Made by a program: the position numbers and the translations under genes. From positions 131,820 to 195,819 of the forward strand of contig BEXV01000342.1 of assembly GCA_003118195.1 (NCBI GenBank): DNA of 64,000 nucleotides, read 5' to 3'. The notes below the pieces were generated by a model that was not told the origin of the DNA, ran no database searches, and worked only from the letters and a program-made list of their open reading frames with translations. Positions 16,940-61,504 of this stretch are shown here, in pieces. Position 1 is the stretch's first letter; each line of letters opens with the position of its first letter. Origin of the DNA: Hemicentrotus pulcherrimus (lineage: Eukaryota > Echinodermata > Echinoidea > Camarodonta > Strongylocentrotidae).

Positions 16940-18298
16940 TTATTCACGTTTCCTTACGTCATATTCATCGGCATTTCTGTACGAAAACACGAATGCAATA
17001 ATGCTAACACCATGGGCTATCGTTGATAAGGCTAGCACAGTTAAGAGCATCGTTTCCATGGAAATGGGTTCCAATCGAGAGTCCATGTCCATATCAGTCG
17101 CATTCGTCGCTTCATTCACGACGCAATTTGACGAGGGGTCATTTTCTTGAGTCACAGAATCGTCAGTTGGCGATGTCAGCTCGGTCTTTGTAATATTCAC
17201 AATGAGGGTTTCGCATCGTAGTTCGTCCGTCGAATCGTTTGGTTGTTTCAGATCGCTATCGGATACGGAAAGGAATGACACGCGATATTGGTGGTCTGGT
17301 AAATTTAATTGACCGATGCTATGCACTAGTATATTTGAGGAATCATCCTCTTCACCGCAAAGGAAAACGATGTTCCCAAAAGTCATGGTATAAGGTTCCG
17401 TATAATTGACAGGTTGCAAATCGCAACTGTTATTATACCACCACGTTAAGGAAAAATTATCGTTTGGGGCGCAACAATTAAATGTTACATGTTGACTTTC
17501 GAGCACACCATCTTGAATCGTATGTTGTTTTACAGGAGGAAAAGAACACGTTTTATTGCGACGTCGCCTCGTGTGCGAAATCAAGCATTCGGCTGGCATG
17601 ATTCTCTCGTCAAAAATAAATTCGGGATCGACGTTAACACTGAATTTGTTGGTTAATGTAAAATAACTAGCAATATTCATCTCAGGAGCATAATATTCAT
17701 ACAGCACCTGATTACCTGCTTTAAGTTGTGCTTGATCCCCAACGTTCACCTGCAGCCATTGGCAAGACATCTGTAATTTTCCGCGCCCTCTGTCAAGGAT
17801 TGTAGAACAGGTGGGAGGTATAACCTCGATGGTTAAATTCAAAATTAAAACCGTGCAAATGAAACGTGCACCCTCGGTTATTTTAACGATGTGCGTGCCC
17901 GAATCGTTCTCTTCAACGAACGCAATACCCAACTCGAACTCGGTGTCGGAGGATAGTTGAGTTAACGTATACCGGTCAGGTTTGAACAATGTGTCGCTGC
18001 TGATGCATTCCAGAGAACGATTGCATTCTGTCATCCAAGCCCCATCTTTAGTCCATGCCAATGAATGGGTGCTGACCAGGGCATCTTTCAGACTAAATCG
18101 CATTGAAATATTCCGACCAGTCACTGCTGATATTGCTCTTGCTTGAAGCCCATCACACCAGAACGGATCAACGTCAGACAGAGCCAGGTGATATAGAACT
18201 TGCAGAACCGCAAACATACACCCTCCTTTAGGCAATGGAGAAAACGAAACATAATGAACATTAAACATGTTTTCAAGATAATGACGGAAATGGGTCAT
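16940..18298 (-). CDS. IgTR-1: Ig-like transmembrane receptor with almost no cytoplasmic tail
   Basis: Single exon, 452 codons, no disruptions. The hydrophobic signal core (CMFAVLQVLYHLALS) sits at about residues 27-41; M11 or M28 may be the real start, giving a normal signal peptide. The ectodomain follows the family plan: FWCDG near the mature N-terminus, ENDSGTHIV in Ig-1, CQWLQVNVGDQ in Ig-2, then TFNCC and LTWWYN in Ig-3. A Ser/Thr/Asp-rich stalk precedes one membrane segment at about 412-437 that contains a histidine. Only 14 residues follow, without the tyrosine motifs of the other members. The stop codon overlaps an AATAAA. It may be a decoy, an adapter-coupled receptor, or a gene that lost its 3' part. 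It belongs with IgTR-6, -7 and -8 (type C, FWC start), its stalk being closest to IgTR-7. Confidence 0.8.
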   Translation of the reverse strand: MTHFRHYLENMFNVHYVSFSPLPKGGCMFAVLQVLYHLALSDVDPFWCDGLQARAISAVTGRNISMRFSLKDALVSTHSLAWTKDGAWMTECNRSLECISSDTLFKPDRYTLTQLSSDTEFELGIAFVEENDSGTHIVKITEGARFICTVLILNLTIEVIPPTCSTILDRGRGKLQMSCQWLQVNVGDQAQLKAGNQVLYEYYAPEMNIASYFTLTNKFSVNVDPEFIFDERIMPAECLISHTRRRRNKTCSFPPVKQHTIQDGVLESQHVTFNCCAPNDNFSLTWWYNNSCDLQPVNYTEPYTMTFGNIVFLCGEEDDSSNILVHSIGQLNLPDHQYRVSFLSVSDSDLKQPNDSTDELRCETLIVNITKTELTSPTDDSVTQENDPSSNCVVNEATNATDMDMDSRLEPISMETMLLTVLALSTIAHGVSIIAFVFSYRNADEYDVRKRE

Positions 18299-18588
18299 AC
18301 ATACTTTGCTTTTGAGACCCGCAAGTGATTATGAAAATGTTATCAATAACTTCACTTATGATTTCATACAAAACTTTTCTTCAGCACTTTCACATCCTCG
18401 CATACAAGAGCTTTCACACACTTAAACAAATACATGCACAGACTTAATTTTTAACACATTACACACAAACACGCACAGCGTGCTCTTGGGGTTCGTTTAT
18501 GCTTGATTTTAAAGGTAGAATGAGCGATTTGAAACGCTCATCGTAAATGCTCATCGTAATCGCAGTTCCACGATGTACTGTTTATGCT
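18299..18588. other. 5' flank of IgTR-1
   Basis: Presumed promoter and leader region of IgTR-1. No clear TATA box with the spacing seen in type-A genes was found. Confidence 0.3.
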
Positions 18589-18671
18589 CACTTCTCTGGC
18601 TCCTCCTCTGGCTCCTCCCGGCATGATTCTGGCTCAGAGCCAGAATCATGCCTGGAGGAGCCAGAGAAGTG
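18589..18671. repeat. Near-perfect palindrome (hairpin)
   Basis: The right arm (18637-18671, from GAGCCAGAATC to AGAAGTG) is the reverse complement of the left arm starting at 18589, around a single central base (18636). The left arm holds a 12-base extra copy of TCTGGCTCCTCC, so the arms differ by that duplication. A cruciform or foldback transposon remnant are possible explanations. Confidence 0.8.
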
Positions 18672-19752: not shown

Positions 19753-19783
<31 letters not shown>

Positions 19784-27198: not shown

Positions 27199-28780
27199 TG
27201 TACTGTTCGAAAGAAAGATCTTTTCTCTCATGGCTCTTTGTATTATGAGTAATGCATTTGTTGTCTACTGCCTCAGACTCGCCCTTCAAGGAGAAGTTTG
27301 GAAGTCCTTTCTCAATTTCCTCACAAGAACGCATTATAGCATCACTCGTACAGTGTTGCTCCACGGCTAAGGTGTCGGTCGGTACATCATTCCTGGGCCG
27401 AGGCCGCGGTAAAGAAATGTTGGTCAATAAAAGATTTTCTGTAGCATCATCACCATCTATTGTACTTGAAATAGTTCCAACATTACGTGTTAGCTTTACA
27501 CGACGCCGGTAAAAACCTCGAATATTCATGAAACACATACAACTTCCCAACGAAAATGCTATTGTTGATACTACGGTCAACGAAACTATAAGTGATGTAG
27601 ACGTATTTTGACTTTTGTTCGTGGTTGAATCTTTTAGCATCACAATACTCGTAGTGACTTGGTTTGGATTTGTCTCTTCTGAAGTCGTTGATTCGGAACA
27701 ATTTCTTTTAACATTGACAAGGATACTTCGACATGGTTTGTCATTTGTTGAGTTGCTGAACGAATTTCTGTCTGAAACCGATATGGTATAAAAACTACCC
27801 ATTCCTGAATTCACACTTATGCCATAGAGTAGTATTGAGTTTGATATATTTTCCTCTCCCCCACAGATAAAAAGAAAGTGATCGAGACCAGTTATAAATA
27901 TGTCTTTCGTGAAATTGATGGGCATTAATTCATTATTCACTTTGTACCGCCATGTAAAGAAAATGTTTTTGTTCGCTGTGCAACATTGAAAAGTGACATT
28001 ATCAGTTTTGCCATTTTGAATCGTGTATCGTTTTATAGGCGGGAACTTGCAAGTTTTTCCATCATCTCGTTTGTGATTCAAAATAACACATTTGTCTGGT
28101 AATGTTCTTCCATCAAATATGTCGCGGGGATCAATGTAAACACTGAATATGTTGGTGAGATTGAATCGACCGTCAACGTTTATGTTTAGAGTGTTATGGG
28201 CATACATCACATAGTTTCCCCCATCTACAAGTTGTGCTTGCTCCTCTTCTATTACCTGCAGCCATTGACATGTCATCTGAATTTTCCTTTTTTCCTTGTT
28301 GAATATAGTCAAACAAGTAGGTTCTATAAATTCAACAGTCAAATTCAGTATCAAAACTGTACAGAGGATCTGTGCACCATTATACACTGAGATTACATGT
28401 TTTCCCGTATCATTAATTTCGACGAAAGAAATTAATAAAGTAAGAGTGCCATTAGTATCCTCAATCAAATCATAACGCGTGACATCAAAAGAAACGTTTC
28501 CTACATTGAACTCCAGAGTGCAATTGTGTCGCTTTTCCCATGTTGACTCTCCCTTGGTCCATAAAAGTGATTGAGTATTTAGAAGTTGAGTCTGGAGAAG
28601 AGGTATCATCAGCGAAACATTTTGTCCATTCACCACATGAATTGATTTACTCAGGTCCTGTAGTTCATGGCCATTGCACCCCAATACATGATCCTCACAA
28701 AATGAAGATTGGTAAAAAGATTGCAAAAGCAGAAAGAAAAATGACGCCTGTCTGAATTCGAGGAAGCCTGTCAGAGACAT
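26537..28780 (-). CDS. IgTR-2: type-A Ig-like receptor, tail cut by gap
   Basis: Start taken at 28780 (MSLTGFLEFRQ), where sister genes begin; an in-frame ATG at 28831 would add 17 residues before the signal peptide. The signal core is FFFLLLQSFYQSSFCE. Ig-1 has HNCTLEF and NDTGKHVISVY; Ig-2 has CQWLQVIEEEQAQL and ends at KCVILNHKR; Ig-3 runs from CKFPPIKRYTIQN through VTFQCC to FICGGEE. The stalk (NPNQVTTSIVM) precedes the membrane segment (STSLIVSLTVVSTIAFSLG) and a basic stop-transfer FYRRRVK. The visible tail keeps ATENLLLTNIS, QHCTSDAIMRSCEEI and HERKDLSFEQ, matching IgTR-3. The tyrosine-motif part is in the N run. No disruption is seen before the gap. Closest relatives are IgTR-3 and IgTR-4. 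Confidence 0.8.
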
Positions 28781-29318: not shown

Positions 29319-30287
29319 TTACTGCGTTATTGCTTTAAAGAAAACAAATTTGTCCATGCTATGCACAATCACATTTGAGTTATTATCCTCTTCTCCGTAA
29401 AAGAAAACGATGTGATGAATATTAGACAAAGTAATATTTTGTGTAAATTCGTGAGGTAGCGCTTCTCCATCATCACTGTACCACCACGTAGCAGAACTAT
29501 GCTCACTTGGGACGCAACGATTAAATACATACTGATCTGTTTGTTTGTTCCCAATCGTATGTTGCACCACTGATGAAAAATGACACGTCTTGTTAACATT
29601 TTCATGTCTATGAAAGACTAAACACTCGAAGGAAAACTCATCCCCCGTCAGTAAGTTTTCAATTGTCACATAACGCTAAACGTGTTTATTTCCCTGTAGA
29701 CACAACCTAAGTTGCTTATTCCAGTCTCCTCCTTGGATAATACCCCTTTTCTGGCTACAATCTCTGTGTAGTCTCCTTTGTCAACCTGCATCCAGCGACA
29801 AGTCATCTCTACCTTACCCATCGATTTGGAAAGAAAAGTAGTGCACACGGGTTGTGTGTTCTAAATTTTTAAAGTCAAACGAAAAGCAAGACAAACTGAT
29901 CGAAACTCGTCGTAAATGTCAAAGGTGTGAGTCCCTGAATCATTTTCTTCTTCGATTTCTATAGATTATTTCAAACGTGTTGTTATCGATTCCTTTAAAC
30001 AATTTATAACGTCCATTGCTGATATTGCGAATGAAATCATGACTGGAACTTTGATATATCCCGATTAAAACATTCCCATCTTTCACCCACTGAAGATATT
30101 GCGTCTCTTGCAACGTCTGTGTGACGCGAAATGTAAAGGAAACATTTTGGTCATTAATTCCGTTGAAAGTCTTATACTTGTACTCACAAATGTTTTCCGT
30201 AGAAAAAAACTGCTGATAGAAAACTTGGAGAATGAGAAAAAGGAGAAAATAGTTCATGGTGAGGATAAGATCCTTTTTCGACAACAT
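29319..30287 (-). pseudogene. psi-B: truncated type-B receptor pseudogene
   Basis: Begins MLSKKDLILTM at 30287, the same start as IgTR-5 (MLSKKDFILTM), with a signal core YFLLFLILQVFYQQ. The Ig-1 region matches IgTR-5 up to NTFEIIY, where a frameshift follows near 29940-29960. Ig-2 continues in other frames (MGKVEMTCRWMQVDKGDY, then a further shift near 29666), and Ig-3 is recognisable (KTCHFSSVVQHTIGNKQT, ATWWYSDDGE). It stops after IVHSMDKFVF, where family similarity ends, so stalk, membrane segment and tail are missing. At least two frameshifts plus the 3' truncation make it dead as a receptor. It marks the right half of an A-plus-B dimer. Confidence 0.85.
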
Positions 30288-30904
30288 TCTCAATGTTCAG
30301 TTATTTGGCCTGCAAAAAATAGGAACTCAGATGTGCATCTACGCCAACTCACCTCAATCCTGAAAATATAGAGCTGAGATTCTCGCCATATGAAGACGTC
30401 CACAATGTACCAATTTTCTTTTGGAAGTTATTTTAAGAGTATGAAGCTGTTTTCAGCAAATTTTAACGTATCACCCAATCCCAGCTCGACAATCCAATTA
30501 CAAGTGACCGTTTTCATTTCGAGTAGTTAATTGTGATTGACAGATCTGTTGGAGGCGTACACAGGAGCAAACAACCACTTAAATAGGTTTTGAAATTATG
30601 CTCAATGTCTTCTAAATGGTGTTTAGATTTAAAATACCTTCGGTTTCAGTTGTAATAGTCTTGTGTGTAAGGTTTAGGTCAGAGACATGGCATAAGGTGA
30701 TTAGGCCTAATGTAGAATATAACTGGTTTCAGATCAACAATAGGCTGTAAGTTTTGTGCCTTTCCTATTTAATAAAAAACTTGGTATCGAGTATGTTTGC
30801 TTGATTTTCCGACTGATGTCAAGTGAGTTCCAAATTGAGTGGATAGTGGACATCGGATTACCACGTGACCTACTATACACTGATCCAAACAGACCTATTA
30901 TATA

Positions 30905-32928: not shown

Positions 32929-35045
32929 TCAGAATGATGAGTGCCCCGATTCATTCATATACAGTATACCATCACAGTTCATTTCATCAGTGGGGATCGC
33001 GACGCTGTTACTATAAATCTGACTGTTATTCATGCCTTGATGCGAAGCGGTCCTATAGAAGTCATCACCAGGAACTCTCGGATCATCATAATCCGATTCC
33101 AAAGCAGCAGTTCTCTTGGTTTTTCGACTCATATCGGGTTTTGCGTAGAGCTCGTCAACATTTTTTGTGGGACCAGACCTGTTTGCCATCGAATCGTGCC
33201 TTCCATCTTTTCGTTCTACCGCACACGGTCTCTTATCCCTAATGACATTGTACAGATTGGAGCAATCTGTTTGTCCATCACTTGGGTGAGGTGACGACCG
33301 GAAGGACATCGGGGATACTATCCCGGTGTTGGAAGGATTATCTTTGACATCATCCAAAGAACAGTATGTACTGTCTTGAAACGGTGCGCTTGGGACGACT
33401 ACAGTAGGTCTTGCGCCTCCAATCTGAATGCTATCTGCAGTACATGTGGAATCGCACCCGATCTCGCGCAGGGTCTGTTCGAAAGAAAGATCTTTTCCCT
33501 CATATTTGTTTTTAGTATAAGTAATGCATTTGTTGTCCACTGCTTCAGAATCGCCATGGAAGGAAAAGCTTGGAAGTCCACTCTGAATTTCCTGACAAGA
33601 ACGCATGATAGCACTGCCCGTAGGATGTTGCTCTCTGACTGAAGTTTCAGTTGGTATATCATTCCTGGGCCGAGCAGAAGAAATATTGGTCAGTTCAAGA
33701 GATTCCGTAGCTTCATCACCAGCCGCAGTGCTTGAAATAATTCCAAAATGTCGCGATGGTTGAACGCGACGCCAGTAAAAACCGCGAATGATAACGAAGC
33801 ACATACATATTGTCAAAGAAAATGCTATTGCTGATACTACGGTTAACGGAACAGTAAGTGATTTAGACGTATTTTGGATTTCTTTTGTGGTTAAATCTGT
33901 AAGCATAAGATCATTCGAAGTGACTTGGGTTGGATTTGTTTTTTCTGAAAGGGTTGATTTGGAAATACTTCTTATAACATTGACATGGAGAGTCTGACAT
34001 GATTTGTTATCTGTTGAGTTGGTTAGCGGATTTCTGTCTGAAACCCATGTGGTATAAATGTTGTTTCCGAAGTCCAAACTTCCAACGCCATAGATTAGTG
34101 ACGGGTATGAGTTATTCTTCTCTTCAGCACAAACATATAGGATGCGTTCGGAAGCAAGTATGAAATTTTCTTCCATGAAATGTAGGGATATGAAATCGCC
34201 ATCAGCTTTGTACCACCATGTTAAGTAAAAGCTTTTGTTTGCTGTGCAACATTGAGATGTTTCATTCTTGGATTTGAAATCTTGAATCGTGTATCGTTCT
34301 ACAGGTGGAAAATTGCAAGTTTTTTCCTCATATCGTTCGGATGTGAAATGACACATTTGACCGGCAAGGTTCTTCCATCAAATATGTCTCGGGGATCGAT
34401 GTAAACACTGAATTTGTTTGTAAGATTGAGTCGACCGTCAAAATTCATGTTAAGAGTCTCTTGGGCATAGAGCACCTGATCTCTCGCATCTTCAAGATGT
34501 ACTTGTTCCTCTTCTATCACCTGCAGCCATTGGCAAGTCATCTGTAATTTGTTCCTATCATTGTCAAAAAAAGTCAAACAAGTGGGCTCTAAAGATTCAA
34601 CGATCAAATTTAGTATCACTACTGTACAAAGGATCTGTGTACCTTTATGTATTGAGATGACATGTTTCCCCATATCATTACTTTCGACGAAAGAAATGAA
34701 TAGAGTGAATGTGCCATTAGTATCCTCAATCAAATCATAACGTGTGACATCAAAAGAAACGTTTCCTCCAGTGAACTCCAGAGTGCAATTGTGTCGCTTT
34801 TCCCATTTTGAATCTTCCTTGGTCCAAACTAGTGATTGAGTACTTTGTATTGGGGCATGGAGAGGAGGTAACATCAGTGAAAAATTCCGTCCGTTTACTA
34901 CGTGAATTGATTTACTCAGCTCCGGTAGTCCATACATATTGCATCTTAATCCATGATCCTCACTAAATGAGCCTTGGTAATGAGATTGCAAAAGCAGAAA
35001 TAACCATAGCGCCTTTTTAAAATCGGGGAAGCCTGTTAGAGACAT
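32929..35045 (-). pseudogene. IgTR-3: type-A receptor with one single-base deletion
   Basis: Two frames join into one gene. Codons from ATG 35045 (MSLTGFPDFKK) give the signal peptide, Ig-1 and Ig-2; the second frame gives Ig-3 from EKTCNFPPVERYTIQ, stalk, membrane segment (SLTVPLTVVSAIAFSLTICM) and the full tail. The shift lies in 34317-34355: from Cys to Cys IgTR-2 has 39 bases and IgTR-3 has 38. A run of six A (coding strand) is a likely spot, so an assembly error is possible. The tail is the reference set: STYCSLDDV, LYNVI, LYAKPDMSRKT, ESDYDDP, DDFYRT, QIYSNS and a final ILYMNES. YxxL/ITIM-like, YxxP (Crk) and YxN (Grb2) readings are by consensus only. If the deletion is real the product stops after Ig-2 and would be secreted. 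Confidence 0.8.
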
Positions 35046-36882: not shown

Positions 36883-38913
36883 TCAGTGGGGATCGCTATA
36901 AATCTGACTCATGCTTAGATGCGAGGCGGTCCTGTAGAAGTCGTCACCAGGAACCCTTGGATCGTCATAATCCGATTCCAAAGCAACAGTTCTCTTGGTT
37001 TTTCGACTCAAATCGGGTTTGGCGTAGAGCTCGTCAATATTTCTTGTCGGACCTGACCTGTTTGCCATCGAATCGTGCCCTCGATCCTTTCGTTCTTCCG
37101 ATAATGCACACTGTCTCTTATCCCTAATGACATTGTACGGAGCTGAATGATCTCTTTGTCCATCACACGACGATTGAAAGGTCACTGAGGATTCTATACC
37201 GGTGTTGGAAGGAGTGTCTTTGACATCATTCAAAGAACAATATGTACTGTCTTGGAACGGTGCACCTGGGACGACTACAGTAGGTGGTGCGCCTCCAATT
37301 TGAATGCTATCTGCAATACCTGTAGAACAGCGCTCTGTCTTGTGTAGACGCTGGTCTAAATTCCAATTCTTCACCTCATTATGCTCATGATTGTCTCTAA
37401 TATGAGCAATGGATCTGTTGTCCATTTGTCCAATTTCTCCTTGAACGTAGCTGTGAGGTCCATGTTGACTTTCCTGACACGCATGTATAATAGCATTACC
37501 CGTTCCATGCTGCTCCTCAACTATGGTGTCACGTGGTACGTCTCTCCTGGGTTGAGACCGTGCAGAGAAAATATTGATCAGTTCAAGAGATTCCGTAGCG
37601 TCATCACCGGCCGCTGGGCTGGAATTGATTTCAACATTGAGTTTTTGCTTCATGCGACGCCGGTAAAAACCTCGAATATTGATGAAGCACATACGAATTG
37701 TCAACGAAAATGCTATTACTGATACTATGGTCAAAGGAATGATCAGTGAAGTTGACTTATTTGAATCTGTTGGCGTCATATAACTCGTATTGACCTGAGT
37801 TGGGTGTGTTTCTTCCGAAATCATTAACAAGGAAGTATTTCTTGAAACATTCACACTGATAGTTTGACATTGCTCGCCATCTGTTGAGTTGCTTGAAGGA
37901 TTTTTAACTGAAACCGATGCCGTATAAAAACCGCATTTTCCCACATCCAAACTTCCCATGCTATAGAGTAGCATTGAGTTTGATCTCTTGTTCTCTTCCC
38001 CGCAGAGAAAAAGAATGCATTCGGGACCAGTTATCGACATGTCTTCCGTAAAATTGATAGGTATAATATCATCATCAACTTTGTTGCACCATGTAAAGGA
38101 AATGTTTTGTTTTTCTGTGCAACATTTAAAAGTTACATTCTCGGTTTTGTCATTTTGAATCGTGTGATGCTTTAAAGACGGGAACTTGCAATTTTTTTCC
38201 AAATTTCGTTTGTGATTCAAAATAACACATTTATCTGGAAGTTTTCTTTCATCAAATATGTCTTCGGGATCAACATCAACGCTGAATTTGTTGGTGAGAT
38301 TGAATCGACCGTCAACGTTTATTTTTAGATTCTCATGGGCAAAAATTATACGATTTCTCGCGTCTACAAGTTGTGCTTGCTCCCCTTCTATCACCTGTAC
38401 CCATTGACAAGTCATTTGTATTTTGTTCCTTTCCTTGTCGAACATAGCCAAACAATTGGGCTCTATAGATTCAACGGTCAAATTCAGTATCAAAACTGTA
38501 CATAGGGTCCGTGCACCATCATATACCGAGATGACATGTTTCCCCATATCATTACCCTCGACGTAAGAAATGAATAGAGTGAATGTGCCATTAGTATCCT
38601 CAAACAAATCATAACGTGTGACATCAAAAGAAACATTTCCTCCAGTGAACTCCAAAGTGCAATTGTGTCGCTTTTCCCACCTTGACTCTCCCTTGATCCA
38701 CACCAGTGAATGAGTACTTTGTATTGTAGTCTGGAGATAGGGTAACATCAGCGAAAAATTTCGTCCGTTCAACACGTGAAGTGATTTCTCCGGGCCCAGT
38801 TGTCCATTACAACCCCATCTAATAAACTCACAAAATGAGGATTGGTAAAAAGATTGCAGAAGAAGAAAAAACCATAGGGTCTTTCTGAAGTCGGGGAAGA
38901 CAGTCCTAGACAT
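36883..38913 (-). CDS. IgTR-4: type-A Ig-like receptor, frame-shifted only at the extreme C-terminus
   Basis: 676 codons in one exon. Signal peptide 1 to about 29; Ig-1 about 30-145 (HNCTLEF, NDMGKHVISVY); Ig-2 about 150-236 (MTCQWVQV to KCVILNHKR); Ig-3 about 240-350 (CKFPSLKHHTIQN, VTFKCC, LFLCGEE); Ser/Thr stalk; membrane segment about 388-410 followed by FYRRRMK. Tail motifs: STYCSL with Y558, PYNVI with Y593, LYAKP with Y630, SDYDDP with Y649, DDFYRT with Y660. After QIYS an 11-base deletion relative to IgTR-3 shifts the frame and ends the protein at DPH; the lost ILYIN motif is still readable in the next frame at 36836-36878. Ligand and signalling partners are unknown; an immune or self-recognition receptor is inferred from architecture and clustering. 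Confidence 0.9.
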   Translation of the reverse strand: MSRTVFPDFRKTLWFFLLLQSFYQSSFCEFIRWGCNGQLGPEKSLHVLNGRNFSLMLPYLQTTIQSTHSLVWIKGESRWEKRHNCTLEFTGGNVSFDVTRYDLFEDTNGTFTLFISYVEGNDMGKHVISVYDGARTLCTVLILNLTVESIEPNCLAMFDKERNKIQMTCQWVQVIEGEQAQLVDARNRIIFAHENLKINVDGRFNLTNKFSVDVDPEDIFDERKLPDKCVILNHKRNLEKNCKFPSLKHHTIQNDKTENVTFKCCTEKQNISFTWCNKVDDDIIPINFTEDMSITGPECILFLCGEENKRSNSMLLYSMGSLDVGKCGFYTASVSVKNPSSNSTDGEQCQTISVNVSRNTSLLMISEETHPTQVNTSYMTPTDSNKSTSLIIPLTIVSVIAFSLTIRMCFINIRGFYRRRMKQKLNVEINSSPAAGDDATESLELINIFSARSQPRRDVPRDTIVEEQHGTGNAIIHACQESQHGPHSYVQGEIGQMDNRSIAHIRDNHEHNEVKNWNLDQRLHKTERCSTGIADSIQIGGAPPTVVVPGAPFQDSTYCSLNDVKDTPSNTGIESSVTFQSSCDGQRDHSAPYNVIRDKRQCALSEERKDRGHDSMANRSGPTRNIDELYAKPDLSRKTKRTVALESDYDDPRVPGDDFYRTASHLSMSQIYSDPH

Positions 38914-39540: not shown

Positions 39541-40919
39541 CAACTATCTTTTATCTATGAAAATGAAAATATTTAATCGAATGCAATCTTTTATATTCAG
39601 CTTGTTTTACATGTTTAACCATCAAACAATTTCTTACCAAATCATTCTGATAATTTTATCATTTCCGTACGGATAAATAGTAAGGCATTTAAGACAAAAA
39701 CAAATCGTATGAAAAATATTTATTTTGCTCGGACATGGAATTCGCTAAAATTAGGATCAATTATATGCCAGGGTATAATTTTCACTACACATGATACAGA
39801 GACCAAGAAAATTGTATTTGTATTCCCCCTTCATCTTATAAAATGAACATGCATGGAATATATGTCTAGGTATTACTAGTAGATGTAATACAAAAGTATG
39901 AATAAAGGGAATAGATACAGGATACGATATCATAATTTTAATATTACAAAGCATAAACTATGATCATATAAATATCTGACATTGTCAGATGAACGAAAGT
40001 TTTTAGATTGAATTCGTTAAAGACTTTCGAGTTTTTTTTAAATCACGAACGATTCCCACACTGACCACATTATTACAAAGCGACGTATATATATATATAT
40101 AATATAATTTTTCCCTATCTTTTGAACTCCTGGAGGATTCTCAAGTGGAACCTACTAAGATTCTTGACGGAAGTAACACCCGACAGTTAATGCACTATAC
40201 AGAACTAATAAGAAAGTGTACATTCATTTTCGCCGTCATCCTGATAGAATGAATAAAAACAAAGAAATAGTTAATTAATGTCAAGTTCGCCCCAAATCCA
40301 GGCACCAAGATACAAAAGTATTTGCCCTCATTGTTATCTATACTATTTTCACGAAATAGTTTAAAGGTTTAAAGGCCAAACAATTAATAGTTAAATTCTA
40401 ACGGCATTTTAAAGATATTACCAATTTAGAAATTCCCTCAAAACAAAAGGGCTTGAAAACTTTTGAAATTCACAATGGTGGCTTTACACTGTTGATCTTC
40501 TCTTGAATTGTTAAAATGTCTTGTGTCTGCAACACGTACCAACAATATTTAACTTTCGTATTGTGGGTGTTTCCGTAGATCAACAGTTTCAATATTATGG
40601 ATAATAACCATTGAAGGGTCTTACTCCGCATTGCAGAGGAAGAAGCAGAAGAAAAACATTTATCCACGTAGCCCTTCACTGTCATTGATTATCTCGGCTA
40701 CCAGAAAAAAAAATCACATAGTTTACAAAGCGTCTTCTACAGGGAATTCATGATTAAGATTGAGAATACTCGCACTGTTACCGTAGAAAGGACCAACGAG
40801 GATATTTGAGTCTACATCATTTTCTGCAACACGATTTGTTTGATTCGTTGCTATCCTCAGATTCCCCAGTCGTCATCCACAGGAGCTCTACCACCTTGGC
40901 CTTGCTGCTTGGTAACACC
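39541..40919. other. 3' flank of IgTR-5, possibly with a decayed tail end
   Basis: Mostly unrecognised AT-rich spacer. At about 40735-40875 the minus strand has another frame reading NRVAENDVDSNILVG, FYGNSAS, then stop, in a style like the distal tails of IgTR-3 and IgTR-6. It could be the former C-terminus of IgTR-5, separated by a frameshift. A short TA tract lies at 40087-40100. Confidence 0.35.
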
Positions 40920-42893
40920 TCAGGATGCTGCAGAGTGATGGATCTTCCTGGTCTTTCGGCTCATGTCAGGTTTGGCGTAAAGAACCTCCACGTCTACCAT
41001 CGGTTTGACCGATACATGAGTTAGTGTAACAGGTGATAGAAACCCTTCACTAATACTTGATGGACTCTTAGAATTCTTTTGGCCACTGAATCGGAGGGTC
41101 TGTTGCATGGGTGTCGATGGTGACGGCAGATCTTCCATCTCAGTTTTAGAGGTGGCGCCATCGACATCATCCAGAGAACTATACGTGATTTCCAGAGATG
41201 GCTCACTTCCAACGACTGTACTTGGAGCGTGTGTCTTGAGACTCACTTCGTCATTGTGAGTAGTTCCTCCCAAGTGTTCGTTGATGCGTCCAGACGTCCC
41301 AAGAAGTTCTGCAGAGGCAGAGTTAACATGGCTACAGTTGTTTGTGAGATGTGAAGTAGAGTTGCCCTCGTTCTTTACCATTGACTGAGAGGCAGGAAGG
41401 CTTGACTCACTGCGCCGACCGGAATGCAAGGAATCAAACTGCGGATCTTCAATAAGTGACCTGCCTACTGGTGGCTGATTTGATACAGCACCATGGGGTA
41501 GAGAAGCTTCATCGGGTTGAGTTGTAGGGGTAAAAATACTCTCCATTTCCATGGATTCCGTGTTATCGTCACCTACTGCAGTCAATAAACTTCCTCGAAG
41601 ACCCAAGGTCCTATATTTTTCTCGAAATATGCCATACAGTTTTGTAAAACAAATACCGATAATAAATCCAAGTGCCGTTGCTACTCCAAGCACTGGGACC
41701 CAAAGATTTGTTTTACCGTCGAATATATATTTCATTGAATATGTTCCTTGTGTTGTTGACAATTTTGTAAACGAAGTACTGGGCCTACTAGAAGTAGAAG
41801 TAGAAATCGTTGTTAAAGCTGATACGAAGACGGTCAGAGTGAGATTGTTGCATTCCAGATTATCTTGTGAATGTGCTTGCCATAGCTTATTGTTGCTAGC
41901 TGATTCCGCAAGAAACGAAACGTGGCTATACCGGTAGTCCAATAAATTTAATATGTCCATGCTATGTAGGATTACATTTGAGTTATCATCCTTTTCACCG
42001 TAAAGGAAGAATATATGATTAATGTTAGACAATGTATAATTTTGTGTAAATTCTAGAGGTAGCACTTCTCCATCAACACTGTACCACCACGTAGGGGATA
42101 TTGTCTCACTTGGGATGCAACGCTCAAATACGAACTGCTCGGTTTGTTTGTTCCGAATAGCGTGTTGCATCATGGATGGAAAATCACATGTCTTATTCAC
42201 ATTGAAGTGTCCATGAAAAACTAAGCATTTGAAGGGCAATTCATTTCCAGCCAGTAAATTTTCCATTGTCACATAAACGCTGAAGGTATTAGTTATTTCC
42301 TTGTAGATATTACCCAAATAATTCCTTCCAGTCTCCTCCCTTGATACTACACTTTCTCTAGATACAATCTCTGCGTAGTCTCCTTTATCAACCTGGATCC
42401 ATCGACAAGACAACTCTACCTTAACCGTTGTATGGTAAAGAAGAGCAATACACTTAGGGTCCGTGTTAAAAATTCTTAAGTTCAAATTGAACGCTGTACA
42501 AACTGATTGAAACCCGTCGTAAATGTTAATGATGTGAGTTCCTGAATCCTTTTCTTGTGCGAATTTTATAGACATTACAAACGTGTTGTCTTCGAACCCT
42601 TCAACCAACGTATGAAGTTCGTTACTCACATTGCTTATGAAGCCATGACTGGAACTGTGGTATATTCCAATTAAAACATTTCGATCGGTTGTCCACCGAA
42701 GATCTTGCGTTTTTAGCAATGACTGTGCGACACGAAATGTAACGGAAACGCTTTGTTCGTTTATTCCGTAGAAATTTTGATATTGGTAATTCACACAAAC
42801 CTCCGTAGAAACAGGCTGCTGGCAGAAATCTTGCAGAATGAAAAGAAGTAGAAATGGTTTCATGGTTAGAATAAAGTCCTTTTTAGACAACAT
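40920..42893 (-). CDS. IgTR-5: type-B Ig-like receptor with ITIM-like and YAKP motifs
   Basis: Intact single exon, 657 codons, ATG at 42893 (MLSKKDFILTM); the signal core is FLLLFILQDFCQQ. Three Ig-like domains: about 30-140 (KDSGTHIINIY), about 147-225 (LSCRWIQVDKGDY to FKCLVFHG), about 235-345 (CDFPSMMQHAI, TWWYSVDGE, FFLYGEK). A Ser/Thr-rich, probably O-glycosylated stalk (about 360-385) leads to a membrane segment at about 397-419. The tail shares GDDNTESMEME with type A (GDDATESLEL). Y571 in LEITYSSLDDV fits the ITIM consensus exactly (I-x-Y-x-x-L), and Y639 lies in LYAKPDMSRKT. The protein ends 18 residues after that tyrosine, lacking YDDP and YxN motifs. Its paralogue is psi-B. Confidence 0.9.
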   Translation of the reverse strand: MLSKKDFILTMKPFLLLFILQDFCQQPVSTEVCVNYQYQNFYGINEQSVSVTFRVAQSLLKTQDLRWTTDRNVLIGIYHSSSHGFISNVSNELHTLVEGFEDNTFVMSIKFAQEKDSGTHIINIYDGFQSVCTAFNLNLRIFNTDPKCIALLYHTTVKVELSCRWIQVDKGDYAEIVSRESVVSREETGRNYLGNIYKEITNTFSVYVTMENLLAGNELPFKCLVFHGHFNVNKTCDFPSMMQHAIRNKQTEQFVFERCIPSETISPTWWYSVDGEVLPLEFTQNYTLSNINHIFFLYGEKDDNSNVILHSMDILNLLDYRYSHVSFLAESASNNKLWQAHSQDNLECNNLTLTVFVSALTTISTSTSSRPSTSFTKLSTTQGTYSMKYIFDGKTNLWVPVLGVATALGFIIGICFTKLYGIFREKYRTLGLRGSLLTAVGDDNTESMEMESIFTPTTQPDEASLPHGAVSNQPPVGRSLIEDPQFDSLHSGRRSESSLPASQSMVKNEGNSTSHLTNNCSHVNSASAELLGTSGRINEHLGGTTHNDEVSLKTHAPSTVVGSEPSLEITYSSLDDVDGATSKTEMEDLPSPSTPMQQTLRFSGQKNSKSPSSISEGFLSPVTLTHVSVKPMVDVEVLYAKPDMSRKTRKIHHSAAS

Positions 42894-43638: not shown

Positions 43639-43673
43639 GTAGATTGTGTCTGGTTTGCTTGTTATTTGTTAGA

Positions 43674-46262: not shown

Positions 46263-46799
46263 GAATAAATGATATCAAAAGAAAGAGAAAAATAGTGAGA
46301 AACACCATAGACCTACATACTAAGTTTAAAGTGACTCGGTAACTTGGTGAAAGTTGATGACAAAATTGCTTAATTTTTGTATAAAATGTTACTTATTATA
46401 TTGTTTCTACTGTACTAACCCTCTGACATGCAAAACATCCTGAAACACTCTCAAACCACGAAGATATCTATCGTTTTCTTTGAAGGCGACACTGTGCAAC
46501 ACCCTCTAACAGTGATTGACAGTACATTCTCCAAACCATTTTTGAACTTTCTCAACTGCTTTTCCATGAAAAAAAATACATAAACAGGCTATTAAGAATC
46601 TGTCAACACTTAAATGTCTGAAATGGTTTGTAGAGCAAATTTATTTCTTTGTGACGATTTACATTCACCTAAAATGTAATTAAATTGTACTAACATAGTT
46701 GGGAGAACTAAGGGATCGATCGGTTTTTTATAACAAATTATCTTTAAATATGGAAAAATAAATTTATATATCGTTCTATGTTACTTGATAATACTAAAA
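46263..46799. other. Spacer between two LINE copies
   Basis: No gene or repeat recognised. It probably includes upstream decayed RT sequence of the neighbouring plus-strand LINE remnant. Confidence 0.3.
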
Positions 46800-52617: not shown

Positions 52618-54771
52618 TCAGGAGAAAGAATGAGCGGGTGCGTTAATATACAGTTCTTCACGATCCGACAATTCGTCAGTGGGATTAGCAATCATGTTAC
52701 CAAAGAAGTCAGTATGGTTTAGGACCAGGGGTTCTGAGCCATGTTCTGGAACGAAAGTGTCTTGGCCGGAGTTGCGACCGAGGTAGCTACCGGGGTCGGT
52801 ACCTGGAGGCCTGGGGTCGTCATAATCTGACTCCAAAGAGGTCATTTTGTTAGTCTTTCGGCTCATGTCCGGTTTGGTGTACAAGGCATCTACATCTGAG
52901 TCTACTCCTGAAACTCTCGCCAGCATGCTCGTCAATGCATTTTGTTGCGATCTGCCTGATTTAAATGAAGAAGACGTCGTTGAAACTCCCATATCGAAGT
53001 GATCCTTGGAGGATGGATGGGGACATGGGAAGGACGATGCATGTAAAGGCTGGCATTTCTTCGAGATATCTTTAGAAGTGCCTTTGAAATCGTCAACTGA
53101 ACAATACGCAGTGTCCAGGTAAAGCCCACTAACAAGATCATGTCCTATATGCTTATCAAGGTTTGTGTCAAAGCCAGTGGAGGTGCGTCCGATGGCACCC
53201 TTAAGATCTTCCCTATTCAAAGTGTAATTAGTAGAGCGAGGAGTAAAACAACTGCTCTCAGGCTCTCTACGTTTGCGCTGTGAATGTAGGCTTGGGGATC
53301 CACTCTGGAGGTTGGACACGGGAGCCTTTCTGACTTGATTTTGTTTGTGCCATCCCTGACTTATTGAACCCTGAAGAACAGTAGCTCCTCGAAGTTCAGA
53401 ATCCCGACAACTTTGAAGGTCTTGTAACTGTAAGTTTCCCATGTCTTCAGACTGTGTTCCAGTATCACCAATTGCTGCCGTGGAATCAGGTTGCATCACA
53501 TCATTTATCTCTTTTCCAAAGTGGTATCGATATTTTCTTGAAACAATGTAGTAACAGTTGACAGAGCCAGTTGCAAGGCAGAATATTATAGAAAGCACTA
53601 ACACTATCCAAACCCAGATCGAGACTTTATTTGCAATGGTATTATTCACGTTGGAAGCTTTTGACGTCACAGTAGTCATCGTGTTCAATTCTCGATTTTC
53701 ATCCGGATGTTGTAAATTTTTCGTAACGTTTGTAACCTCAAAAAATATGTTCTCACACTTTAAATAATCATCAGAATTGTTACTTCCTTCTGTTCGGCCT
53801 AATGCTGACAGCGAAATGTTGTACTGTTTACCTTCTGCAAGATTAACATTTCCAATGCTATGCAATAACACTGTGTTGTTTCCACTCTGTACACCGCAGA
53901 AGAGATAAAAGTGACGTCCCACATGGGTAAGGGATAACTTGTCAGTAAGAATGAGTGGAAGCAAATTGCTACCATTATTGGACCAAAACTTGATAACGTC
54001 GGCTTCTTCTGTGGTGCAACATTCAAACTCAGAACACAGAGTTTGGTTTCGTATTGGAAGAAATGTGCACGTCTTATTGATAGATATTTTGCTATTAGAA
54101 ATAAGACACATGCTCGGCACAACTCGATTATAATGTACGTTTTCAAGAGGAAGGTAAACGCTGAATTTTTTGGTTGAATTGAAATCGCCATCAATATTCA
54201 TTTCGGTAGTCTCATACTCATATACAACCTGATTTCCTGCCAAAAGTTGTACTTGATCCCCTAAGTTGACCTGCACCCATTCACAAGACATCTGTACTCT
54301 TCAGATTTCTCGGTCAAAGTGGGTTGAACAGATTGGGGCTGTCCCTTAAATGGTTAAATTAAAAATTGCAATGGCGCAAAGCGATTGTTTCCCAAAATTG
54401 ATTTTAACGACGTACTTTCCTGAATCACTCAATTCAGTGAATGCAATAAACAAGTCGATAACATCCTTTCCCGACTCTTTTGTCAATTTATAACGTTCTC
54501 GATTAGCAGATGTGTTGTCAATATTGTCCAATAGCCGATTATCAAGTGTTATCCATTTTGCCCACACCAATGATTGATTCTCAGTTAATGGATCATTCAG
54601 AGCAAATCTCATAGACAAATTTCGTCCATTGAATGCTTCAAATGCTGCTCTCTGCTTGTCGCCACACCAGAATAAATCACCCTCACAAAATGTCAATCGG
54701 AAGACAGCTTGAAAAATGATAAGAACTAGTGGAGAGATTTTAAATTTCAGCGGGAAACGATTTTGAGGCAT
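52618..54771 (-). pseudogene. IgTR-6: type-C receptor with two in-frame stop codons and a complete tail
   Basis: Start taken at ATG 54771 (MPQNRFPLKFK); the upstream codon of the open frame is GTG. Signal core PLVLIIFQAVFRLTFCE, mature FWCGDKQ, Ig-1 to FNLTI. There TAA (54346-54348) and TGA (54310-54312) interrupt the same frame across a stretch still reading GTAPICSTHFDREI, clearly coding by homology with IgTR-7. The frame then stays open for 557 codons: SCEWVQVNLGDQ, Ig-3 (FECCTTEE), stalk, membrane segment (WVWIVLVLSIIFCLATGSV) and the fullest tail of the type-C group, with AYCSVDDF, LYTKPDMSRKT, ESDYDDP and a final EELYINAP. Recent nonsense mutation, allelic null or programmed readthrough are the options; the first two are likelier. 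Confidence 0.8.
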
Positions 54772-56124: not shown

Positions 56125-58149
56125 TTACTCAAATAGTAAAAACAGACGTCTTAGAATTTTCTCGATTGATAAAATGAGTGGACAGATGTGTTCAGGTATA
56201 AAATCATCATCATCTTTAGATGAAGCAACGGCATTTGCTGCGCTGTTGCTGTAAATGTGATCACTATTAAGGAGAGATGTGTCATCTATACCTCCAGCTA
56301 GAAACAGAATGTCAGGACAAAGATCCTTTTCAACATGGTCAACACCCAAACAAGGAACCCTTGCACGATCAGTAAGACTCTTGTCTAATTCAGGGACTGA
56401 TTCAAAAGACGGATTTTGGATGCCACCTAGCTTCTTGGTCTTCCGGCTCATGACAGGTTTGGCGTACAATGTTTCCACATCTGATGTTGGCCATGTTACG
56501 TTGTCCATTGATAAGTTATTATTTTTTATCTCCGTCTTCACGCATGAAAAAGGTGATTTATCGGCACTAGTTCTCTCATCAAGAGCAGTGCCCTTGTTAC
56601 CAGATGTTTGAATGATCAATGTGGGCTTCTTCCTTATATACACATCCGCGTCGGAGAGGGAGTTCTGGCGGACTGTCCTGTTGTTCGGGATAAAATATCC
56701 GATGCCTACGTGGAGGAGATTTGTGAACTGCGATACTGCCGTGCTCAGGATCTATCAAATTCTCCGAAGTGCGAAACGATAAGGTCGCTGTGTCATCTGA
56801 CACTCCATCATCTACCAATTGAATTGCGTTCATGCTATTTCCATGCGATCGCCCTCTTTCGACTCGATATTGATACCTGATTAAAAATCGTTTGTAACAT
56901 ATGCTGAAGCAGATTCCGAGGCAGATAACTATGCTGAACCGCAACGCAATTGCGATGTTACCCACAGGTAAATTAAGGGTTGTTTTGTTTCCTCGCCAAC
57001 GTCCATATCAGTCGTACTCATCACTTTACTCACGATACAATTTGACGAGGAGTCATTATCTTTAGATTTCAGAAATGTAGAAGGAGCTTTTGTTTCAAAG
57101 CCTTTCTCATTTGATGAAGCATTCACTGATACATTTTCACAATATACGATGATGATGGAGCTGTTTTCCCCTTCAGAAAATTTGCATTTAACATCTTGTA
57201 TTTGTTCATTGACACTGTCTTCTCAATGATGTGTTTCGTTCCCACCAAGAAGGACAATTTGCTTGATGTTTACCAAAGAAATTTCGTTAGAATAATTGAA
57301 TGAGAGTAGATTACCACCAGTATCGTACCAACATGATGCTACTTTTAAGTCTTTGACCTTGCAACGGTCAAAAAAAGCACTTTGAGGTTGTTCTTTTCCA
57401 ATAAAAATTCGTTGTATTGTAGGGAATGTACATGTTCCGTTGGTGAACCCTTCGTCATTTGATAAAGCACACCTACTCGGCATGATCTCTTCGTTAAATA
57501 TGTTTTCTAGAGCAACGTATGCAATAAATGTATTTGATGAATCAAGATCACCCTTGTTGTTCATCCGAAGCGTTTCATATTCATATAGCACCTGATTTCC
57601 TGCCATGAGTTGTGCTCGATCCCCTTTGTTCACCTGCAACCACTGGCATGCCATTTGTAATTTGCCGCTATGTCTATTGAAAAGCGTAGAACAAATAGGT
57701 GCTGTACCTTCAATGGTTAAATTCAGGATAACAATGGTACACAGTGATTGTGAATCCTGGTAAATTTTGACGACGTGCTGTCCCGAATCGTTTTGCTCAG
57801 TAAACGCAATGGTCATCTCGAACAGGGTCCCGTTGATCTGACTCAACGTATAACGACTATTATCAATAGACGCGGAGGTAATGCATTCCAGAGTACGATT
57901 CTGTAGTTTTTCACAAACTAACTTTCCCCTTGTCCACACAATCGACTGAGGTTTACCAATTGTCTGTCTCAGGTTAAACCTGAGAGAAATATTATGTCCA
58001 TTAACCTTATGCCTTGAATATTCCTGTTGCTGGTTACACCATAAAATATCATCTTGAGTAAAAGTCAGTTGGATGAAACATTGAAAAATAAAAAAGACCA
58101 CCAATAATGTGTGTTTAACAGCGATGCTTCGTCGAGACATGGCGATCAT
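56125..58149 (-). pseudogene. IgTR-7: type-C receptor pseudogene
   Basis: ATG 58149 (MIAMSRRSIAVK) opens 308 codons: signal core LLVVFFIFQCFIQLTF, DILWCNQ, Ig-1 with NDSGQHVVKIY, Ig-2 with CQWLQVNKGDRAQL, and Ig-3 to LLGGNETHH. TGA at 57223-57225 then breaks the frame, which reopens immediately (EDSVNEQIQDVKCKF, and a stalk like that of IgTR-1: DNDSSSNCIVSK, TTDMDV). Frameshifts near 56930-56990 and 56600-56640 separate the membrane segment (IAIALRFSIVICLGICFSIC) and the tail, which still has ETLYAKPVMSRKTKK and HIYSNSAAN. The ITIM-like motif is not seen. With several lesions this is a pseudogene; a truncated secreted two-to-three-Ig product is conceivable. Confidence 0.8.
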
Positions 58150-59288: not shown

Positions 59289-60208
59289 NNNNNNNNNNNN
59301 NNNNNNNNNNNNNNNNNNNNNNNNNNNNNNNNNNNNNNNNNNNNNNNNNNNNNNNNNNNNNNNNNNNNNNNNNNNNNNNNNNNNNNNNNNNNNNNNNNNN
59401 NNNNNNNNNNNNNNNNNNNNNNNNNNNNNNNNNNNNNNNNNNNNNNNNNNNNNNNNNNNNNNNNNNNNNNNNNNNNNNNNNNNNNNNNNNNNNNNNNNNN
59501 NNNNNNNNNNNNNNNNNNNNNNNNNNNNNNNNNNNNNNNNNNNNNNNNNNNNNNNNNNNNNNNNNNNNNNNNNNNNNNNNNNNNNNNNNNNNNNNNNNNN
59601 NNNNNNNNNNNNNNNNNNNNNNNNNNNNNNNNNNNNNNNNNNNNNNNNNNNNNNNNNNNNNNNNNNNNNNNNNNNNNNNNNNNNNNNNNNNNNNNNNNNN
59701 NNNNNNNNNNNNNNNNNNNNNNNNNNNNNNNNNNNNNNNNNNNNNNNNNNNNNNNNNNNNNNNNNNNNNNNNNNNNNNNNNNNNNNNNNNNNNNNNNNNN
59801 NNNNNNNNNNNNNNNNNNNNNNNNNNNNNNNNNNNNNNNNNNNNNNNNNNNNNNNNNNNNNNNNNNNNNNNNNNNNNNNNNNNNNNNNNNNNNNNNNNNN
59901 NNNNNNNNNNNNNNNNNNNNNNNNNNNNNNNNNNNNNNNNNNNNNNNNNNNNNNNNNNNNNNNNNNNNNNNNNNNNNNNNNNNNNNNNNNNNNNNNNNNN
60001 NNNNNNNNNNNNNNNNNNNNNNNNNNNNNNNNNNNNNNNNNNNNNNNNNNNNNNNNNNNNNNNNNNNNNNNNNNNNNNNNNNNNNNNNNNNNNNNNNNNN
60101 NNNNNNNNNNNNNNNNNNNNNNNNNNNNNNNNNNNNNNNNNNNNNNNNNNNNNNNNNNNNNNNNNNNNNNNNNNNNNNNNNNNNNNNNNNNNNNNNNNNN
60201 NNNNNNNN
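59289..60208. other. Assembly gap, 920 Ns
   Basis: The gap removes the cytoplasmic tail of IgTR-8. Open frames spanning it are artefacts of N translation. Confidence 0.95.
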
Positions 60209-61504
60209 CCTGGAATAACATTTCGTAATGCAAGAACCTGCGACGCACCCAAACGCAAGCGCTGCTATTGTAGCCACTGGTAATATATAGATAGATAGGT
60301 ATTTTTCCATTATACCGCATTCTTTACTTTGAGAAGTTATGCTTGGTACCGCCCTAGTCGTCTGAGTGTGGTCAAATATTTGGTCGATCACACTTTTTGT
60401 AGAGATTCCCTTCTGATTGTTTAACGTCGAATCAAGTCTTGTAAAATTCACCGTGATGACTTCACATTGCTCATCTTCTCTTGAATTGTTATGGAGAAGT
60501 TGTGGGTCTGCAATATGTAGCAATAACGTTGAACGTTCGTGTTTGGTGTGTTTTCTAACATTCAAACTTGTCATGTTAATGATAGTAATCTCTGACGGTG
60601 CTTCGTTTGAACCGCAGAGGAAAACGAGGATACAATCAGCGTCTCCTACATTGAAATTTTGGTTAGAATCGACAGATAATTCATTGCCATCGCCGTCGTA
60701 TACTAGTAGGATGGGTCTGCTTGGCTTGGCGACGCAACATTCAAATTCCACATTTTCACCAAGGGTATTCTCAATAGGGTGAGGTGTGACCACAGGGAAT
60801 TCACACACTTCTTTCGCTCTTCCTTTCCTGAGAGAAACAATACACTTCTTAGATACCGTAACTTCCCCAAGTATCTTATCAAGACCAACGTATACGCTGA
60901 ATTAATGCGTCAAATTAAAGGAACCGTTGAAATTCAGTTCAGGAATCTCATGTTCATACAAGATTTCGTTGTCTACTTCAAAGTGTACTCGATCCCCTTC
61001 GTTTATTTGCAGCCATTCACAAGACATCTGTAATTTTCTGCTTTCATTGTTGAGTTGTGTTAAACATATCGGTTCTGGAGTTTTGACGGTTAAATTGAGC
61101 ACGAGAGCTAGGCAGAGTGGCTGGCTACCTTGATTAACTGTGACAACATGATGTCCTGAATCATTCTGCTCCGTGTATCCAATAAACAAATCAAAAGTAA
61201 TGTTGCTGATTTCAGTCAATCTGTAAAGGCCATCTTCAGAATCTCCGTAACCGTCGTATTCTAAAGGTTGATCGAGTGGTTTTACCCAAGCCGTTCTCCA
61301 CATCAACGTTTGAACGTGTAGCAATGGATTTTCCAAATAAAATATTATGGAAATATTCTGTCCGCTCCAAACGTCCATCACTTCTTCTTGCACGTTGCCA
61401 CACCAAAATATTTTGTCATCAGACAAGGTGACGTGGAAAATAATAGGCAAAATAAGAAACGACAAAAACATTCTCCAGGCAAAATATAAATGTTGAGTAT
61501 ACAT
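60209..61504 (-). pseudogene. IgTR-8: type-C receptor with one in-frame stop, tail lost in gap
   Basis: Start at ATG 61504 (MYTQHLYFAWRM); signal core MFLSFLILPIIFHVTLS, mature KIFWCGN. Ig-1 has NDSGHHVVTVN, Ig-2 has MSCEWLQINEGDRVHF. At NLTH the frame meets TAA (60902-60904) where relatives have K of TNKFSVYV, then continues in the same frame (FSVYVGLDKILGE, CEFPVVTPHPIEN, VEFECC, LVFLCGS), so a single nonsense change is the only lesion seen. The membrane segment (YILPVATIAALAFGCVAGS) ends at KCYSR, directly before the Ns. Full tail status is unknown. If the stop is real the product would be a two-Ig secreted fragment. Confidence 0.75.

Follow-up and report, generated by a model that had tools for sequence, protein, structure and literature searches.

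Single-exon receptor genes with long and short tails form a tandem family with an immunoglobulin-type first domain in the sea urchin Hemicentrotus pulcherrimus

The 64,000-nucleotide stretch of H. pulcherrimus DNA analysed in this study (positions 131820-195819 of contig C342, BEXV01000342.1, in an assembly of 414,278,638 bases in 4189 contigs; hereafter the window) carries part of a tandem multigene family of single-exon genes for type-I membrane receptors. By sequence, the encoded proteins have a cell-surface architecture, and they occur in two forms with shared ectodomains: a long form, whose tail bears conserved tyrosine motifs, and a short form, which ends just past the membrane helix. 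We consider it fairly probable that the two forms act as a paired-receptor system. The preliminary description of this DNA had likened the array to those of immune or allorecognition receptors, a view which is partly supported by (i) the extension of the tandem array over several contigs, (ii) the many open members and (iii) the ordered tails of SH2-docking type.

Family loci in the window

Nine related loci had been placed on the minus strand of the window, and all of them were recovered at the same positions by tblastn and a six-frame profile search; these searches revealed no further family loci in the window apart from a relic ("ghost") of the third domain. Many locus-versus-locus E-values were below 1e-40 (tblastn), which excludes a chance origin of the relatedness. 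The intronless reading of leader, three cysteine-bearing domains (D1, D2 and D3), stalk and helix held for every unbroken copy. The loci, designated L1 (61504) to L9 (18217) in reading order, and their features are as follows (all on the minus strand).

60209..61504, L1: leader, D1, D2 (in-frame stop at 60902-60904), D3, stalk and membrane helix
59289-60208, run of N, where the tail of L1 would fall and is hidden
56128..58149, L2: D1, D2 and part of D3 open, then decayed; remnant of the tail (LYAKPVMSRKT) at 56469
52618..54771, L3: long-tailed; two in-frame stops between D1 and D2
within 52618..54771, tail of L3: complete, with TAYCSV, LYTKPDMSRKT, SDYDDP and LYIN
40920..42893, L4: open frame of 657 amino acids (aa); tail stops shortly after LYAKPDMSRKT
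40441..40620, ghost: D3-like relic immediately downstream of L4
36883..38913, L5: open frame of 676 aa; frameshift within the last ~25 residues
38464..38823, D1 of L5: V-type Ig domain lacking the B-F cysteines; a Cys close to each end; Trp and DMGKH present
38176..38463, D2 of L5: about 96 aa; the four Cys of the family; fold not recognised
37828..38175, D3 of L5: about 116 aa; fold not recognised
37696..37752, membrane helix of L5: long-tail type, by hydropathy
37231..37245, motif Y1 of L5: TYCSL
37015..37029, motif Y2 of L5: LYAKP(DLSRKT)
36958..36975, motif Y3 of L5: SDYDDP
32929..35045, L6: long-tailed; tail complete to LYMNESGHSSF
34299-34377 (overlap), L6: single frameshift at the D2/D3 hinge
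29322..30296, L7: pseudogene of L4 type with several frameshifts; nothing found 3' of D3
27199..28780, L8: open through the helix into a run of N (26537-27198); tail motifs not seen
16940..18217, L9: 425-aa frame, open throughout; short-tailed class; protein P0008, from another source, 90% identical over the whole length
16943..17059, short-tail module of L9: METMLLTVLALSTIAHGVSIIAFVFSYRNADEYDVRKRE

Short and long forms with shared ectodomains

The tail of L9 had been regarded as lost. This was not borne out: the short tail marks a conserved class with a near-constant helix, and the interpretation of L9 as a decayed long-tailed gene was rejected, since the same short end is conserved across the short forms. 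Open members of the class are L9, C2547:54403-55773 and C2870:22751-24148, as well as P0008, P0009 and P0012 from other sources. The short forms stop 2 to 11 residues past the helix (L/V)STIAHGVSIIAFVFSYR, which shows small changes among members. In pairs of short forms with differing ectodomains, 19-23 of 27 residues of the helix module are identical, at an ectodomain identity of 28-36%, while the helices of five deep long-type lineages share only 6-12 of 26-32 residues. Between L1 and P0009, 292 of 386 ectodomain residues are identical, compared with 9 of 23 in the helix.

A tree of D1+D2 was built from 36 rows (6 short, 25 long and 5 unlabelled), with long branches in the L4 clade. The short label requires 5 changes on this tree, at least 3 of which are forced by well supported branches, and a single change was found in 0 of 200 bootstraps; the label "long" of L1, L8, C2036 and C3926:14073 was taken from the helix or early tail only. 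As few changes as observed were needed in 185 of 500 label shuffles, and tail type therefore does not track the tree. The two classes do not form two branches; ectodomain clades contain short as well as long forms. Ectodomains in the C2870:22751 clade are 73-77% identical between short and long forms (silent divergence, pS, 0.20-0.23) and 76% identical within a type (pS 0.17-0.18). Closely alike ectodomains, the mark of paired receptors, thus occur on forms which differ in helix and tail.

Exchange of the short module is well supported. Between L9 and C2870:22751, pS amounts to 0.39 in the helix module, an estimate based on 28 codons, and to 0.75 in the ectodomain (365 codons). With a silent divergence roughly half as large as the ectodomain's, the module was probably moved by recombination, and it probably spread in this way as an element younger-looking than the ectodomains to which it is attached. 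In C2870:15051-16334 and C2547:49447-49827, which are 87% identical and may derive from one event, the short module comes after a helix of L3 type.

Copies or relics of the short module lie just downstream of four long-tailed loci (counting the C2547 piece). Its use as an alternative last exon, starting near ...ACTCAG/GG..., was considered; recombination relics are the favoured explanation. Three of these places show, in the DNA, remnants resembling D3 whose frames are broken or differ; the fourth corresponds to the C2547 chimaera. A further short-tail module, at C877:98131-98301 (minus strand), is the only match on its contig to either P0001 or P0008.

Tyrosine motifs of the long tail

Judged by their motifs, the long tails appear to carry an ordered series of SH2-docking-type sites: Y1 (resembling the immunoreceptor tyrosine-based inhibitory motif, ITIM, or YxxM in one clade), Y2 (LYAKPDMSRKT), Y3 (SDYDDP) and LYxN. 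In terms of SH2 preferences, Y1 is similar to the ITIM or the corresponding switch motif (ITSM), or to PI3K sites where Met is present, LYAKP and YDDP are of Crk/Nck type, and LYxN is of Grb2 type. Within the window the tail motifs were seen in L3, L5 and L6, in part in L4, and as a relic in L2.

The tail alignment comprised 21 rows, including near-copies, two foreign proteins and the distant paralogue on contig C865; the row of L3 covers its last 87 residues only, and the Y1 counts are therefore out of 20. The most conserved site is Y2 (Tyr in 21 of 21 rows, Lys in 19, Pro in 20 and Asp in 20). Tyrosine is present in 19/20 rows at Y1, in 16/20 aligned rows at Y3, and in all 15 rows that reach the last motif, LYxN. 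Six rows end before it: L4 and L5 (both damaged), C865, and the open genes C342:256034, C2870:30308 and C2547:47226. As these three open genes lack LYxN, the fourth motif is not universal. The +3 residue of Y1 is Leu in 9 rows, Val in 5, Ile in 1 and Met in 5 (n=20), all five Met rows belonging to the L1 clade of the D1+D2 tree. Classified by motif only, the Y1 sites include 8 strict ITIMs, one ITSM and 5 YxxM, with one row lacking Tyr and the remainder being near-ITIM.

Comparison of L3 with L6 revealed 34 of 50 identical residues in the four motif blocks, which were picked after inspection, versus 42 of 222 in the remaining tail. The invariant columns among the tails of L3, L4 and L6 were clustered beyond all 10000 shuffles.

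Domains of the ectodomain

Three Ig-like domains had been proposed. The proposal stands for D1, whose profiles match Ig proteins, and not for D2 and D3, for which no significant match was obtained. Two D1 profiles were searched against the PDB. The first, from 8 window sequences, retrieved 47 sequences at E<=10, 44 of them Ig-domain proteins by name; the second, from 24 sequences collected genome-wide, retrieved 146 at E<=1 (best E 9.3e-6), and all 60 of the matches listed were Ig-domain proteins by name. Pfam V-set was matched by 10 of the 24 D1 members (best 4.4e-5), all listed V-set scores being below the curated 26 bits; a few unrelated families were also weakly matched in these scans. D1 is thus, on profile evidence, a V-type Ig domain and the sole domain that is demonstrably immunoglobulin. 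Comparison of the D1, D2 and D3 profiles in pairs revealed no relation among the three.

The Trp, Asp and Gly of the C strand and Tyr corner are present in 24/24 D1 rows. The canonical B-F disulphide of V-set domains is missing, with Cys in the F stretch in 0/24 rows and near strand B in 1/24. Cys is found instead in the A region (22 of the 22 rows reaching it) and near strand G (24/24), and these two residues presumably form a bridge. The reported replacement of Tyr by His in DxGxY was confirmed in 23/24 rows of the genome-wide alignment; Tyr is kept in L3 (not among the 24 rows), in C2870:22751 and in the C865 paralogue. D2 is characterised by C-x-W and four Cys (in 27, 27, 27 and 26 of 27 rows).

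The absence of the canonical D1 disulphide is a trait of the SLAM/CD2 family (2B4, CD48, CD84), and the sea urchin proteins might be true members of this family, which would then reach back to the echinoderms. The D1 profile does match 2B4 (E 3e-4), CD48 (0.0067) and SLAMF5 (0.073) in the PDB, Pfam Receptor_2B4 was matched in 5/24 members, D2 has its four Cys, and one clade contains an ITSM-like site. However, a better score was obtained for myomesin and comparable ones for other V or I domains, as expected if the score is driven by the missing cysteines. The family is defined by a two-domain V-C2 ectodomain and an ITSM tail, whereas the sea urchin receptors have three cysteine-bearing domains, single-exon genes and other tail motifs, T-x-Y-x-x-V being found in 1 of 20 Y1 rows, plus L3. 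Membership is very improbable, and the similarity may reflect convergence. The preliminary description had named a clear match to some described single-copy adhesion receptor as a finding that would speak against it; the searches made yielded none.

Open and broken members across the assembly

With P0001 and P0008 as queries, 57 and 50 matches, respectively, were obtained in the assembly. Ten contigs were examined and, by a grouping rule, 42 loci were counted on them, nine in the window and 33 elsewhere (including the C865 paralogue; the isolated C877 module is not among them). In 17 of the 42, D1, D2, D3 and the Y2 motif lie in a single open frame; L4 and L5, both with damaged tail ends, are among these. 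A start Met and a hydrophobic leader are present in 14 of the 17 and a stop occurs just upstream in 2 others; in the remaining one, the sequence taken in ends before its start region. Fourteen family members were found in other sources. Their best matches on the ten contigs are 61-83% identical, except for P0008 (90% identical to L9), and these proteins are likely to come from another species. A search of viral contigs with P0001 revealed no related loci.

Selective constraint was estimated as pooled dN/dS (ratio of nonsynonymous to synonymous divergence) over 26 non-independent pairs from five clades. The values were 0.42 for D1, the lowest of the six regions, 0.43 for the helix, 0.57 for D2, 0.58 for the tail, 0.65 for D3 and 0.89 for the stalk, the short-long pairs included for helix and stalk raising the dN of these two. 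This pattern of substitution indicates that the function of the protein is maintained.

These data bear on the possibility that the array is decaying, without present function, and that its motifs are mere leftovers. The window gives this explanation some substance. Five of its loci have a disrupted reading frame, namely L1 (a single in-frame stop), L2, L3 (two stops), L6 (a single frameshift) and L7, and the end of the tail is lost in L4 and L5. The ectodomain can be read without interruption in L4, L5, L8 and L9 only, and none of the long-tailed copies of the window is shown to be complete. In addition, allele-like copies differ in their integrity: C2870:22751 is open, and its counterpart at C342:267604-268926 has two in-frame stops. 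On the other hand, 17 of the 42 loci keep an uninterrupted frame from D1 as far as Y2, all six regions have a pooled dN/dS below 1, and L9 has a counterpart with 90% identity in another source. Decay is thus largely refuted for the family, for which we consider it very unlikely, and stands for most of the window copies; the window is a largely decayed part, a partly decayed end, of a large array.

Several observations concern individual copies. L021 (C2870:22751-24148) and L014 (C342:267604-268926), the allele-like pair mentioned above, are 99.4% identical over the 3' 505 bases, and the two in-frame stops that split L014 suggest polymorphic null alleles. Shared blocks link C2547 with C4161 (92-94%), C2870 with the end of C342 (93%) and C3221 with the window (90%), and haplotype copies may be included among the 42 loci. 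In the last case, C3221:121484-133201 (L015/L016) matches the window around L4 and L7-L8 at about 90%; the order of the two blocks is retained, an open gene of L5 type lies between them, and the region represents a haplotype or a segmental duplicate. L4 has a close copy, C3221:122007-124136, in which the frame extends over 710 aa and the tail is longer; no start Met was seen in it. The family-type C-terminal end of L5 continues in another frame to about 36834. L6 (at about 34300-34370) and P0006, a relative from another source, have lost the frame at the same D2/D3 hinge, which may reflect sequencing error, recurrent slippage or a null allele common to both. TATA-like ATATAA(A/G)C was noted by eye upstream of L5, L6 and L8; a stricter pattern does not match it.

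The paralogue on C865 (L027, C865:13078-14907, minus strand) contains DSGEYY, IYNTV, LYAKP and SDYEEL, with one in-frame stop in D1. It looks intronless, because its leader and the rest of D1 share its frame; the proposal that it is an intron-bearing founder was rejected, as these parts lie in frame upstream, before the single stop. Its Tyr in place of His may be the ancestral state.

Proposed mode of action

The layout of two forms with shared ectodomains is used by vertebrate immune cells to balance "go" and "stop" signals. For the sea urchin receptors we infer the following with respect to their ligand, cell type and expression, the phosphorylation of the tail and the sign of the signal. 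The V-type D1 would bind a ligand on a cell surface or a microbe, and a Src-type kinase would phosphorylate the ordered tyrosines of the long tail, which could then dock SH2 proteins at the ITIM-like or YxxM site, the YxxP sites and the YxN sites. Through partners of SHP/PI3K, Crk/Nck and Grb2 type, the long form may restrain or tune the cell, the SH2 partners setting its threshold or movement. The short form, which has no tyrosine motif of its own, would compete for the ligand or signal via an adaptor held by the helix.

Several points weigh against a paired-receptor system. (i) Strict ITIM spacing and flanks are found in only 8 of 20 Y1 sites. (ii) Lys or Arg, usual in the helix of activating vertebrate partners, is lacking in the short helix, which contains His (STIAHGVSII) or, in the GMSII variant, Asn. 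(iii) The D2 profile gave one chance match only in the PDB and the D3 profile one antibody V domain (E 0.96), with nothing consistent in Pfam for either. (iv) D3 is near neutral among L5, L6 and L8 (dN/dS 0.77-0.96), and no diversifying selection on whole domains, or arms race, was seen, pooled dN/dS being below 1 in all six regions. (v) Many copies are broken, including most of those in the window, and the number of loci may be inflated by haplotype copies. (vi) The comparison of the helix module covers 28 codons, and four "long" labels of the tree derive from helix or early tail only. The dN/dS values speak against pathogen-driven or polymorphic recognition, which could still sit at a few sites.

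Instead of a paired system, the genes might encode homophilic adhesion or allorecognition receptors in the style of Hydractinia Alr or Botryllus FcoR, whose D1 would recognise an identical or a sister protein on an adjacent cell; identity would come from polymorphism, and contact would be reported by the tail motifs. Echinoids are solitary, and D1 is the most constrained region (dN/dS 0.42) and not the most diversified one, both of which argue against this explanation. It is favoured by the blocks of about 10% divergence, such as that shared by C3221 and the window around L4 and L7-L8 (90%). FcoR and Alr likewise combine V-type Ig domains with long ITIM-type tails and are clustered and copy-variable (PMC12065747, PMC11999971), and responses to grafts occur in both sea urchins and sea stars (PMC2248247). 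We regard homophilic allorecognition as a possibility, albeit an unlikely one. No receptor family for the echinoderm graft response was found in the open-access literature.

Returning to the paired-receptor system, a bolder version, to which we attach only tentative credence, is that of an independent echinoderm Ig complex of paired activating/inhibitory type, composed of intronless genes, in which a His-bearing module was recombined onto V-type ectodomains, and which would be the missing basis of allograft recognition by coelomocytes.

Neighbouring genes and other features of the assembly

At the low-numbered end of the window lie pieces of a rhodopsin-class G protein-coupled receptor (4676-7579, plus strand), parted by non-coding stretches; two of the three pieces scanned match 7tm_1, below its cut-off. 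They are probably exons, so that genes adjoining the array do have introns. A single-exon GT92 glycosyltransferase is encoded at 9396-10841 (minus strand; Pfam E 9.4e-24). Retrotransposon reverse transcriptase (RVT_1) is represented in and next to the array by a long open copy (44666-46312, minus strand) and a fragment (23205-23471, plus strand). A tandem repeat occupies 2815-3070 (unit of 52 bp, 4.9 copies, 96% matches). An Rfam scan at the gathering threshold gave no match.

A search of the assembly for TIR domains yielded 36 matches, 24 of them in stop-free frames of 892 aa or more, which probably represent many single-exon genes similar to those of Toll-like receptors (TLRs). Single-exon TLR-like genes are typical of sea urchins. 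The mitochondrial contig, C4061 (15,675 bases), has AAA at conserved Asn sites of COX1 (FPRMNN, TDRNINTT) and AAG at all four conserved Lys sites looked at; this codon use is that of the echinoderm code, which is identical to the flatworm code for AAA/AAG. Visual inspection of the frames and tRNAs of this contig gave a gene order with most genes on one strand and a tRNA cluster before ND1, which corresponds to that of sea urchins and sea cucumbers.

Comparison with known receptor systems

No report of this family was found in searches of the open-access literature, which do not extend to subscription papers; a survey of sea urchin genes may have mentioned it before.

Parallels are found in other invertebrates. 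As described in a review, the FcoR genes of Botryllus schlosseri form clusters (53 loci) and encode type-I Ig receptors with a V-type domain and tails with ITIM, hemITAM or core tyrosine motifs (PMC12065747). The same source attributes to Botryllus allorecognition ITIM/hemITAM receptors and homologues of most proteins of the pathways of the ITIM and of the immunoreceptor tyrosine-based activation motif (ITAM) (PMC12065747); such pathways therefore exist outside the vertebrates. Both families are large and clustered and consist of type-I Ig receptors with a V-type domain and a long tyrosine-motif tail. However, FcoR proteins have sushi and two C2 domains, and some change their motifs by alternative splicing, whereas the sea urchin genes have a single exon, extra YxxP and YxN sites in the tail, and separate short-tailed genes. 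No Pfam match to a sushi domain was found at E<=10 in seven family pieces of the window, some of them partial.

Hydractinia Alr is a 41-gene Ig family with V-set-like domains and ITIM/ITAM motifs on candidate genes (PMC11999971, PMC12065747). Compared by description only, it resembles the sea urchin family as a multigene Ig family with V-set-like domains and motifs that, in the sea urchin, are ITIM-like; it differs in being cnidarian and in having V-set and I-set domains.

In architecture, the sea urchin family resembles the paired receptors of vertebrates. CEACAM1/CEACAM3, Siglec-11/-16 and CD300A/C have alike ectodomains and differing signalling ends, and the ectodomains of Siglec-11/-16 are kept alike by gene conversion, as these papers state (PMC5112662, PMC5701461, PMC12447643). 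Here too, alike ectodomains are carried by forms with different signalling ends. In contrast to the vertebrate receptors, the short form lacks an ITAM, its helix contains neither Lys nor Arg but only His, and the best conserved element of the long tail is the YxxP site.

The single-exon genes can be cloned directly from genomic DNA. Echinoderms are close invertebrate relatives of the vertebrates, and the conserved docking tails, with their tail-less sister class, provide concrete proteins for asking whether paired inhibitory/activating logic predates the vertebrates or arose again. The family is built like paired Ig receptors, yet lacks defining features of each of the named families with which it was compared.

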